Shown in pieces: positions 2,912-7,451 of a stretch of DNA of 26,364 bases. How positions within the stretch are numbered: position 1 is the stretch's first letter; each line of letters opens with the position of its first letter. The stretch comes from a virus. The notes under the pieces are model-generated. The model saw only the letters and a list, made by a program, of their open reading frames with translations, made no database searches and had not been told where the DNA came from. The position numbers were made by a program, and so were the translations under genes. The stretch is from the IMG/VR virus record IMGVR_UViG_3300021135_000035, positions 1 to 26,364 of that record; one strand, written 5' to 3'.

Positions 2912-3865
2912 TTAATTAGCTCCACCAGCATTTAGATTTTGTGTTGAGGTATAGATAGTAAAAGACATACCCCCATCTAAATTATAGTCAGATGGGCCTG
3001 TTGGTCCTGTTGGACCTGTGTTCCCACCACCTGGACCCGTAGGGCCAAGTAGACCAGTAGGGCCGGTTATACCAGTAGATCCTGTAGCACCAGTGATGGA
3101 TAACCCGGTATTTCCTGTGCTACCTGTATTACCATTAATCCCTACTCCAGTATTACCTGTAAGACCGGTAGCTCCTGTAAGGCCAGTAGGACCAGTAGAG
3201 CCGGTGTTACCAGCCGTGGCTCCAGTGGGTCCGGTCATTCCAGTAGTACCAAAGATGGTATATAGAGATGGTATTACTTGGCTTGGTCTATAAGGTAGAA
3301 CAATACCAGAGGTTGCTGATATGGCATAGAGAATAGGATTTGAGTAGGATAGAGGATTAGTTGGTTCTGTGGTTGTTATGGCACCAGGGGTAGCATCACT
3401 CACGAAGTAATATTGACCAGCAGTTAGACCAATTAGACCAGTAGGAATTTGAGAAACCAAGTATAGTATGAAATTATCAACATCTACCACAACAGCAATA
3501 GCAATAGCCAGTGTAGATATATTGTTAGCACAAGCTAATTGCCACTGTGTCCCATTGTGGAAGATGGCATTATTAGTAGTAAAACCATGAGCAGGTTGAT
3601 TTACATTGATCAGATTACCTGCAATACCGGTAGAGCCTGCTGGACCAAGTGTGCCCACTCCTGTCTTACCAGCCACTCCGGTAGCTCCGGTAGAGCCTGT
3701 AGAGCCTGACCCCGAACCCGTAGATCCTCCTAGACCTTGAAGGGCTGGCACAATCCCTTGAGCAAAAGCCGCCTGCCAAGCTGGGGTTAACTTCCCCTGT
3801 GCATCCACCATAGGGGAGCCGTAGGGAAGGTAAAAGACCTTATTAGCGGCATTTTGGTTAGCCAT
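2912..3865 (-). CDS. Collagen-like tail fibre protein with central tail domain
   Basis: 317 residues. The N-terminus ([25 protein letters not shown]) is of a kind often found on short phage tail proteins. A short Gly-X-Y stretch (about 47-85) is followed by a globular block at about 88-200 with [59 protein letters not shown] and [10 protein letters not shown]. That block matches a widespread phage fibre domain that ends in a YR motif. A second collagen-like run (about 207-292) and a short C-terminal tail follow. The start overlaps the end of the gp10-like gene by 8 bases. I infer a fibre or fibre-connector of the particle, made together with the neighbouring collagen-like protein. No enzymatic motif is visible. 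Confidence 0.83.
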
Positions 3866-6800
3866 TTATATCAGCCCCTTTAGCCTTTATCTCCGCTCCA
3901 ATAATGTTGAATTTGACAGGATCAGAGCAAGACAGTCTAAATACCCTATCTCTACTCATTCCTAGTCTTCTCCAGATACAACGGGTCATATAATTACCAA
4001 TTTTACCCATAGATACTGATTGCTCTGGACTAAAGGTATGACCCCCATCATCTGAGTAACTTAATCTAACTTGTGGGTCTGTTCCAATGGAGGTTGTAGT
4101 ATTTGGATAGGCTGTATAGGGGAAGGTGGCAATGAATACTAATGGATAGACGCTTACACCGGTTACACTCCCTGACCAAGACAAAATAGATCCTTGGTAG
4201 GGTGGTATGTTAAATACGCATGTACCACCAGTCAAATCTACGGTAATGTAGTCAGTTCCACTAACTCCACCGGATGAAGGGATGTAGATAGTCTCTGTCC
4301 CATTTTGAACTTGGAAACCCCAAATACCTAATCTGCTGGCTCCATTACCTACATATTTATCATATGGCCAAGTTGCTGGATTATATAGTAAAGCACCAGC
4401 GTAGTGAGTTCCTGTCTCTACTTCTACACCACTTACAGAACATCTATAAATTCCAGTCCCCGAAGAAGAAGCTGTTATCAATTGGGGGCCAGTGTCAGCC
4501 ATCGTATTTGATAGTGTGTAAGGAGAAGCAACACCAGCAATGATAGTGGTCCCTGAGGTTATACCTGTGCCTGAAATAGTCTGTCCAATAGCTAGAGAGC
4601 CTGAATAGGATGAGATGACAGTCAATTGGTTGGTATGGACAGACCCGATAAATTGAGTCCCTACTGGGGTCATTGTTCCACCTACATGAGTCCCATCTGA
4701 CTTAAAGGAGGCTGAATTTAGTATTTGATAGGCAACCATTGGCTCTGGAGCAATTACGGCTGTTGAGTAGGAGCTTTCTCCGATGTATTGGTTTAGAGTC
4801 CATACAGTGCCTGAACCACCTGAAATGAGTGTTCCGGGGAGTATGCCTTTCCCATCTACACTCATTCCGATGGCAAGAGAGCCGGTAGAGGGAGGGGTTA
4901 ATACTGTTAGGGTGTGACCAGAGATGGACCCTGAGAAAGTTAATTTCTGACCTGTTAGAAGTAACTCTAATTCTCTGCTGCTATCACCAATCTGGTAATA
5001 GCAGGAAATAGTAGTAGTTGCTCCTGAATTGGTATTGTAAGAGCACAAGGCCCCATGTTGATTAAATGTAGTATCTTCAATCAAATAGGTGCCAGCATTA
5101 GAACCATCTGGAGCATTTTGTGCCGTTGATCCAGGGACTTCTACTGCGGATAGAAATAGGATGTCCCATATGTAGATTGAATTTGATGCACCAAATACCA
5201 TTGAGTTGCTGGTGGTAATGTTTACTTGAACTTGAAATAGGCTCATATCTGGTATTGTTAGACCCGATACTTGTAGAGGAGAGCCGGGTAGGAAGTCTGA
5301 GCCGCTAACAACTTCACTTGGCATAGTTGAAGTAGTAGTAGTAAATACTGGAACCCAAGTGGTGCCAGCATCCAATGAATAGGAAATAACCATATTTGAA
5401 GGTGAAATGGTAGTAGAAAGACAAGACATATTGAGGGTACCAGATAGATTAACTCCGGTTCCAAATGTAGTGTAAGTCAATGTTGATGTATATGTTGTTG
5501 ATCCTGGGGTTGTAGTAGTAGTAATACTTGCTGCGTTGGCAAGAGTACCCCCTACTTGTAACGTTCCAAAGGTGTTTGAATAAGCGTGTGAAGGGGTAGT
5601 TTCAGTAGCTAAGGCCCCAAATCCTGCAACCCAAACAGAGGCAGAGGGTCGATAGGCAGAACTGACCATAGCTGGGTATGTAGACCAAGCAGAAGGAGCT
5701 AATGTAACTCCGCTGAGAGTCCAGGTAGAGACATCAGCGAAATTCTGTGAGTCTGTGCATAGGTTGGTTATGGGGGTGGTTGACTGAAGATTAGTCCCTC
5801 TCCAATCCGTTGCATAGATATTTGCAGAATTGATGGTAGTGCCAGAGGCTATACCAGAGAATGTGAAATTAGAGATCCCACCTGTTCCAGTAGCAAACGG
5901 GGTGTTTGTTATGGTGAAGGTAGAGGTATTAAGGGTGACGGTTCCATCACCATGATTGGTGAAGCTATTGCTCCACACACCACTACTTGGAAGTGGTGTG
6001 ATTGATACAGTGCCAGTTGGTAAAGCTGGATTACCATTAGAATCTACAAAATTGTAAACCCCACCTACCCCGTTACCATTAAGGGGAACCGCATTAGCTG
6101 TAGCTGAATATCCAACAGGATTCAACCCAGTAGGATAGGCATAACCATAACCATCTAAACCAATACCACTCTCTAAATCTACTTGGAATTGAGAATAGAA
6201 TACACGATCCAGACCGGCTGACATATGAGGAGCCGTACGCATTCTGTAGATTGGCTCAGTTCCAAACAGGTAGCTATTGTTTGAGAGTGTGTATAACTTA
6301 GTAGAATTGTAATCAGAGCATAGATGAGAGGCAACATAGTAAGGGGCAGATAGAGCAATATGGTGTTCAATCAAGTCTCTAGAGAATGTGCCATTCTTGA
6401 AATAGGCTCTTTCTGACCACATCTTTGTAGTTAGGTCATAACACCAAGTTGTAGTAGAAGTGGGTATATTGATACAGTAGAAGCTATGACCACCATCTTG
6501 ATAAGTCCAAGTAGAGATCCCTGTTAAATCAGGGAAAGATTGTATCCAATTTTCAACAGAATGGTTAGATACCCTGACTCCACGATACCCAGCAGCTAGG
6601 AAAACCTGTCCAAACCCTCTGGAGTCGTTAGATACCCAGATCAATTGACCTGACACTTTCTGAATGGTCCAGGGGAGATTACATCCCCCCTCTGCATAGG
6701 AGCCTGGAATTTGCTGGAACTGGTTAGACCCTAAGGCTCCACCTGTATTCTGCCAAACTGAGCTTGAATGCCCACCAAAGAACCACAAAATATCATGATC

Positions 6801-7451
6801 TGAAATAACTCTAGAAACATAGTCAGGACCAAGGTTAGCTGTCACTTCATCCAGATCAGAGATGTTTAGGGGATCGGCTGCAAAGAAGACTGTTGGGGAT
6901 ATGACATTCTGAGTAAATACAAAGTAGCCATCCTGAAAAGTCACATAATTAGCGCCATTATAGGCATTTGAGCTATTTAGCTGGATAGCAGAGGTTGTAC
7001 CTTCCTCAAAAACAACACCATAATTAGAACCATCTACAACTACTACCTGACTAATTGATCCACTGTTAAGCACACCATTGTAATAGTTTGGAATACCATC
7101 TGCTATACAAACAGGTCCAGTAGTAGTAGTTAAGTCAGCAATAACATTAGGAGTTGTCCAGGTAATGCCTTTATCTGGTGTATTTAATGAATAAACAGAA
7201 TTTCCAGCAACACATATGACACTACCAAAGGCTGTAAGGTGCAAACCTCTAATGGGAGATTTTGGTAGATTTGCTACTATATCCTCTCCTGGAACAGATA
7301 CCAACATAGCAACTTCTTGCTCCTTGGATGTAGGCATACCTAAAGCAGACACTTCATCCATTTCTGGATACATGTTAATAGTTTTTTGACCCTCGTAATT
7401 TACGGTTCGGAGTTGGTATGTTGGACCAATAAAGCCCTTTAGTTTACTCAT
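3858..7451 (-). CDS. P22 gp10-like packaged-DNA stabilisation protein with giant insertion
   Basis: 1197 residues from the ATG at 7451, which overlaps the upstream stop as TAATG and has GGAG 8 bases before it; an in-frame TTG lies 6 codons upstream. Residues 1 to about 432 follow the gp10 (Phage_stabilise) pattern: [77 protein letters not shown] and [17 protein letters not shown]. The last 73 residues resume it: [18 protein letters not shown], then [22 protein letters not shown]22 gp10 has 472 residues; these two parts sum to about 505. The remaining roughly 690 residues (about 433-1124) are extra and contain a split carbohydrate-binding-like domain and two copies of a G-x-G-I-x-x-GT tail repeat. 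gp10 proteins plug the portal/tail hub after packaging; I infer the insert projects from that hub. Confidence 0.9.

Follow-up and report, generated by a model that had tools for sequence, protein, structure and literature searches.

Host range in short-tailed phages is generally looked for in the fibres and spikes, with the tail hub being regarded as a conserved piece of plumbing. The hubs of P22 (gp10), Sf6 (gp8) and the cyanophages Pam1 and Pan3 comprise 442–472 residues and possess a platform hairpin without any insert; a precedent exists for nozzle proteins being able to bind a receptor (PMC7241545). Here, we describe a hub gene in the IMG/VR record IMGVR_UViG_3300021135_000035, a virus record of 26,364 bases which is considered here as a whole (hereafter ‘the window’). 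The encoded protein shares with the above hubs the fold, represented by its residues 1–432 and 1123–1191, and its locus shares with P22 gp10-type systems the gene order portal, scaffold, coat, adaptor, hub. It differs from them in that the hairpin has been expanded, and we are highly confident of the resulting anatomy, that is, of a gp10 core carrying a nested insert of ∼690 residues.

A gp10-type hub enlarged within one hairpin

The hub gene occupies positions 3858–7451 on the minus strand as a single unbroken open reading frame (ORF) for 1197 residues plus stop codon, with residue r corresponding to window position 7451−3(r−1). Its ATG shares bases with the stop codon of the upstream gene (TAATG), a GGAG motif is located 5' of the start, and the gene lies downstream of those for a P22-like portal (14240–16447; P22_portal, 1e-149), coat and adaptor (9311–10045; phrog_637, 7e-9). 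In profile searches, residues 8–433 match phrog_578 (head closure Hc3, P22 gp10; E 4e-81) and residues 1125–1190 match phrog_19101 (E 2e-9), and a sequence search of the PDB yielded the Pam1 and Pan3 hub proteins. The core of the full-length predicted structure is confident, with predicted local distance difference test (pLDDT) scores of mostly 80–95, and its C-terminal part comprises five strands with scores of mostly 84–93. The model superposes on P22 gp10 (8eap_D) with a Z-score of 36.5 and a root-mean-square deviation of 2.2 Å for 445 of 471 residues, spanning model residues 1–1191, and similar superpositions were obtained for the Sf6, Pan3 and Pam1 hubs. Residues 1–432 (6156–7451, minus strand; platform strands and a β-propeller at ∼50–393) and residues 1123–1197 (3861–4085, minus strand) together constitute one gp10 fold, consisting of propeller and platform and including the C-terminal strands. 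The phage to which this protein belongs is short-tailed, and the protein is its tail hub, of the P22 gp10 type (‘head closure Hc3’).

The insert, which alignment with insertion-free relatives delimits to residues 433–1122 (4086–6155, minus strand), resides within one hairpin of the core, between strands 417–428 and 1127–1133, at a site equivalent to residues ∼403–405 of P22 gp10 (core hidden Markov model (HMM), 106.5 bits). Because unrelated WD40 propellers superpose on residues 50–393 only, the insert can be assigned to the platform part of the protein, beyond the C-terminal end of the propeller. Insertion-free relatives have 457–528 residues, align at both protein ends and proceed from ‘..ETGVGL’ directly to ‘DPQ..’; they were found in Rhodoferax phage P26218, several Vibrio phages, Pseudomonas phage PAE2 and metagenomic phages. 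The hub of L004, for example, is contiguous across the site (...DLETAVGLDGIQQGTNPQAMLDWSNDGGHTW...), where the window protein holds ∼690 residues, and the N-terminal part plus the last 75 residues of the latter add up to the usual hub length. An independent homologue of 1190 residues (L002, also L003) is 59% identical along its length and has its parts in the same order, and the first ∼770 residues of the window protein recur at 100% identity in contig L001. Hence, the long form is real and stable, yet it is not the family norm. An initial annotation, made from the letters and a list of ORFs, had assigned the N-terminus and the last 73 residues to the gp10 pattern at the usual length, with ∼690 residues of enlargement in between. 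The matches to phrog_578 and phrog_19101 and the comparison with the insertion-free relatives, which are the family norm, bear this out, and the C-terminus does return to the gp10 fold, a point which that annotation had singled out for checking.

A split jelly roll inside the insert

When the 684-residue insert was compared by tblastn with 50,697 phage records, no match was obtained at E values up to 1; scans of viral contigs recovered the same lineage only, and in Pfam, PHROGs and NCBIfam nothing exceeded the cut-off, whether the query was the entire insert or an initial composite of its pieces. The final 126 residues of the insert gave, however, a weak tblastn match to the RcapMu tail fibre (E 0.7), and this led to a contiguous jelly-roll module which is present in 529 phage records, in the RcGTA head-spike fibre Rcc01080 (PDB 6tb9; RcapMu tail fibre versus Rcc01080, phmmer 1e-104), and in the Pbunavirus baseplate proteins E217 gp45 (8env) and Pa193 gp46 (9b45). 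An HMM built from 129 such contiguous modules of public contigs matches the uncut window protein collinearly at (i) residues 561–587 (profile positions 4–29; E 7e-4), (ii) residues 777–826 (30–80; E 1e-7), and (iii) residues 985–1059 (110–184; E 9e-10), and the L002 homologue exhibits the same pattern. After removal of the interruptions the composite scores 72.5 bits (67.1 for L002), as compared with 10.4 for the best of 1000 shuffles; the shuffles were chosen to set the null because a random-cut control reached 54.7 bits when true pieces happened to survive. Between the first two pieces not a single profile position is lost, despite 189 intervening residues. In a set of 112 non-redundant contiguous modules, all are at most 200 residues long and free of large inserts, and instead of a contiguous domain of about 165–200 residues the window protein has one which is broken by these 189 residues and by two repeats. 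A structural model of residues 558–1062, calculated from an alignment seeded with contiguous modules, superposes end to end on the contiguous domain 198–391 of Pa193 gp46 (9b45_1; Z-score 16.9, 173 residues, 2.5 Å), on 8env_K (Z-score 14.8) and, with Z-scores of about 8–12, on carbohydrate-binding modules (CBMs) of the alginate, xylan and cellulose type. Profile matches and model lead us to conclude that the insert holds one predicted CBM4/16/22-like jelly roll which is split into pieces by other segments.

The predicted parts, all encoded on the minus strand, follow each other as described below. Piece 1 of the jelly roll (residues 561–587; 5691–5771) is separated by nested block 1 (residues 588–776; 5124–5690), which bears a weak likeness to Reelin subrepeat B/Asp-box (Pfam E 0.009, below cut-off), from piece 2 (residues 777–836; 4944–5123). 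The first copy of a nested tail repeat (residues 839–893; 4773–4937) shows weak matches to phrog_38233 and phrog_21413 and precedes piece 3 (residues ∼902–933; 4653–4748), which is approximate and assigned at low confidence from its position between pieces 2 and 4 and from the composite alignment. The second copy (residues 934–987; 4491–4652; phrog_21413, E 6e-5) leads to piece 4 (residues 988–1059; 4275–4490). Comparison of the two repeat copies yields a score of 93, whereas none of 2000 shuffles exceeded 64. The motifs NLCTDSQNF, APDG, GIYRC and GIWGFQV, at residues 563, 780, 999 and 1042, lie within a few residues of where the initial annotation had placed them; its proposal that such scattered pieces belong to one carbohydrate-binding-like domain, interrupted by nested insertions among which are two tail-repeat copies, is corroborated by the composite and repeat scores. 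The protein plainly exemplifies insertion within insertion, in that one jelly roll is composed of segments spread across 500 residues and can be recognised only thanks to its contiguous relatives.

The strands flanking the jelly roll likewise have counterparts in E217 gp45. Residues 539–562 (5766–5837, minus strand) resemble its strand ‘VYRKDWEGMVLLSSSPRTN’ with a score of 51 which none of 2000 shuffles reaches, the L002 equivalent being weaker, while residues ∼1055–1099, most of which belong to the C-terminal arm of the insert (residues 1060–1122; 4086–4274, minus strand), resemble the strand which follows the gp45 jelly roll (score 55, reached by one of 2000 shuffles; L002 equivalent 77, reached by none of 2000). 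Since both flanking strands are recognisable, the cassette was probably acquired together with its neighbours. Residues 485–538, located between residues 454–484 and the E217-like strand, may represent a further nested segment; the similarity of residues 454–484 themselves to E217 gp45 is not significant, and homology was rejected for them.

The tail repeat also occurs once, with E values of 3e-6 to 6e-8, in an ORF of ∼328 residues located just upstream of gp10 in nine other contigs (L007, L040, L055, L059, L060, L063, L068, L070 and L074), which gives it the appearance of a mobile filler in head–tail proteins.

The hairpin as an insertion hot spot

Over 91 loci, the loop of the platform hairpin has 1–12 residues in most cases and 36–81 in about 35, and large inserts are found in three lineages. 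Among 54 non-redundant hubs, in a count which left out the large-insert cases, six have at least 20 inserted residues at the hairpin, and any other site has at most one such hub. Large inserts appear in 4 of 72 rows of a tree calculated from the N-terminal core, where they must have arisen at least three times, and at least seven changes have to be assumed for the mid-size class; the large inserts of the three lineages are mutually unrelated in sequence. The platform hairpin is an insertion hot spot of this family, and other tail domains have been taken up there independently in other phages. Two pairs of close relatives exemplify how recently this may have happened. The hub cores of L042 and L057 are nearly identical, and their loops differ by an extension of ∼70 residues with a repeated ‘..TESG..L.TE’ motif, which we read as a very recent loop exchange. 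L052 (3355–5669; also L123) has in the loop a Gly_rich_2 domain, a type known from phage tail proteins (Pfam 1e-8), and comparison with its insertion-free, 95%-identical relative (L081/L124) reveals 930 nucleotides in place of 49, that is, a recent replacement.

In two cases the chain itself appears to be broken at the loop. The gp10 N-terminal part of L027 (3980–6648; also L199) stops within the loop, ending in ETGTGG*, and a second ORF, beginning in an ATGA overlap, encodes a block of ∼450 residues, weakly similar to HAF repeats (E 0.02, below cut-off), and after it the gp10 C-terminus. In L052, the N-terminal part ends in the Gly-rich domain and a stop codon, and a few bases further on an ATG opens an ORF of ∼75 residues which corresponds to the gp10 C-terminus. 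Each split is represented by one contig, such that sequencing error or chimerism is possible; two unrelated cases with overlapping or closely spaced starts are nonetheless suggestive of natural gp10 splits at the loop, and from these apparently divided forms it would seem that complementation in trans by the C-terminal strands is feasible. For Acetobacter phage phiAX1, a glucanotransferase domain suspected to lie within gp10 was found to be encoded by a separate upstream gene. In the part of the literature covered, we found neither published insertions at the hairpin, nor a P22-type hub with a CBM-type cassette, nor a split gp10.

Two further explanations of the long form deserve consideration in view of these data. 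According to one of them, the long form would be ancestral in the gp10 family and the short forms would have arisen by deletion, an order of events which the initial annotation had named as a means to refute its proposal. We found no support for it and regard it as highly improbable: the few large inserts in the tree belong to three lineages and are mutually unrelated, the window protein and its homologue branch from within the short forms, the L052 replacement by 930 nucleotides is recent, and P22, Sf6, Pan3 and Pam1 have short hubs without exception. According to the other, the gene would be an assembly artefact or a chimera in which a hub gene became joined to one for a tail fibre. All records are indeed metagenomic contigs, but the window gene is a single ORF, L001 is identical to it over the first ∼770 residues, and the 59%-identical full-length homologue is independent and has its parts in the same order. 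We consider this explanation refuted for the window gene, for which its likelihood is close to nil, whereas L027 and L052, as single-contig cases, might be artefacts.

A broader proposition, which we put forward tentatively and consider rather doubtful at present, is that the hairpin serves short-tailed phages in general as an exchange socket which accepts unrelated display domains and even a full chain break, with some hubs being functional when composed of two polypeptides. If this were true, host-recognition modules would be swappable on the hub itself and not just on fibres, and if the socket received adhesin cassettes, predictors of host range would have to read hub genes as well. The hairpin moreover offers a naturally occurring insertion point, tried out by evolution, in a protein of solved structure (P22 gp10, residues ∼403–405).

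Possible roles of the insert, neighbouring genes and known systems

The likeliest function of the insert is, in our view, the display of glycan- or receptor-binding surfaces. Somewhat more specifically, we lean towards a reading in which the hub hairpin carries a tail-adhesin display cassette; that the insert takes part in adsorption or glycan binding appears about evenly balanced. The platform hairpin, presumably on the solvent side, would have taken up a tail-adhesin cassette consisting of the CBM4/16/22-like jelly roll and its flanking strands, and the loops of the jelly roll would later have gained, in this presumed order of events, a β-rich block of ∼190 residues and two copies of the tail repeat. 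Given that closure of the core around the hairpin is retained, the hub can be expected to assemble in the normal manner, as in P22, and a putative hexamer would present six cassettes around the tail. Presumably facing outward, these would most likely bind a surface polysaccharide or assist adsorption beside the collagen-like fibres of the phage. In favour of such a role, the relative whose function is clearest, the RcGTA head-spike fibre, mediates attachment to the host capsule (PMC7296036).

Divergence between the window and L002 bears on this reading. The insert protein sequence changes faster than the N-terminal core: its nonsynonymous divergence (dN) is 0.50 versus 0.19 (2.6-fold), reaching 0.73 in nested block 1, with synonymous divergence (dS) being saturated in both insert and core. 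The whole insert is 48% identical in the two proteins, with about 48–60% identity and few gaps for the jelly-roll core and its flanking arms, and 34% for the nested block 588–776. The neighbouring fibre genes g792 and Gly-rich are 93–95% conserved (dN 0.03–0.04), and their dS is low, too. Along the structural genes (window positions 1–12000), dS varies over a roughly tenfold range, from 0.24 for Gly-rich and 0.57 for the coat to saturation for adaptor and hub, a pattern pointing to mosaic exchange around the hub. Because the genome is mosaic, our claim about rates is based on the within-gene contrast in dN only, and the dS mosaic rules out that the fast divergence of the insert reflects pure selection.

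Several observations weigh against the adhesin interpretation. Given the variation of dS along the genome, part of the insert divergence represents mosaicism. The insert has pLDDT scores of mostly below 50 in the full-length prediction, the nested parts are of low confidence also in the model of residues 558–1062, and the latter model leans, through its seeding, to the contiguous fold, such that it is not independent of the profile result. Furthermore, the closest solved domain is that of Pbunavirus gp45/gp46, and the described role of E217 gp45, a baseplate protein, is the anchoring of fibres (PMC10329688); this kinship makes a structural or docking role of the jelly roll possible. The enlarged hairpin might accordingly be viewed as a docking collar which holds the N-terminal parts of neighbouring fibres (collagen-like genes at 1583–3865 and 7451–8185) and offers no receptor surface. 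A nozzle-protein loop of SU10 docks short tail fibres (PMC9509320), a loop of E217 gp45 anchors a fibre within the same protein that bears the CBM-like domain (PMC10329688), many relatives have mere loop extensions of 36–83 residues, and the window contains several fibre-like genes. The E217 attachment loop (residues 76–123) lies, however, outside the homologous segment, and fibre genes conserved at 93–95% next to an insert conserved at 48% are unexpected for tight binding partners, so that we deem a docking collar possible but rather unlikely. We assign a still lower likelihood to the insert being a flexible, fast-evolving shield or spacer without specific ligand, in which modules have amassed because the loop tolerates them. 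Such tolerance would fit with the uptake of unrelated sequences and apparently even of chain breaks, with the low-complexity, Thr/Ser/Gly-rich composition of the insert, and with the low identity of block 588–776. The well-aligned jelly-roll core and arms as well as the length of 690 residues, which is kept in both homologues, speak against a mere spacer, and we continue to favour a displayed adhesin cassette.

Other genes of the window may be mentioned here. A PKD and Kelch-propeller protein is encoded between the portal and scaffold genes (12932–14236), an unusual place for a display-type protein. Two adjacent paralogues at 7451–8791 have a common N-terminal domain, which is followed by collagen-like repeats in one and by a PKD domain in the other. 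One of the two collagen-like genes at 1583–3865 contains an Mtd_N domain (E 7e-11), beside which no reverse transcriptase ORF was noticed in the window. An integrase-like, putative ORF is located at the window end (24809–26095), and the phage is probably temperate, although the window yielded no tRNA gene. L002 (794–1462; also L003) has an additional zinc-finger/HNH-like ORF (CSKCKIEKSIECFSKDKNRK..) between the scaffold and coat genes, which is absent there in the window.

Among known systems, the crAss001 muzzle gp44 and the SU10 nozzle resemble the window hub in having a homologous propeller/platform core (Z-scores 24–26) enlarged by inserted domains. Their additional domains are, however, located between propeller blades 2 and 3 (PMC10172136, PMC9509320), whereas the window insert follows residue 432 and is thus C-terminal to the propeller (50–393), and no CBM-like cassette has been reported at that site. 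A precedent for insertion within insertion is provided by the crass muzzle, in which further insertions occurred in loops of an inserted Ig domain (PMC10172136). The jelly-roll module is shared with the RcGTA head-spike fibre Rcc01080 and the tail fibre gp58 of the Rhodobacter phage RcapMu, which differ in that they are free-standing fibres on head or tail with the module being uninterrupted. Jelly roll and both flanking strands are shared with the baseplate triplex protein E217 gp45/Pa193 gp46, where the module is contiguous (residues 198–391) and belongs to the baseplate of a contractile phage. In the RcGTA and T5 distal tail proteins, too, a domain of the sugar-binding type has been inserted into a conserved component of the tail (PMC7296036), yet the protein receiving it is another one, the fold is of the oligosaccharide-binding type, and the domain is not nested. 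Domain insertion into nozzle proteins is thus already known, while the P22-type hairpin site and the CBM-type cassette, as far as the part of the literature covered allows one to judge, are apparently new.

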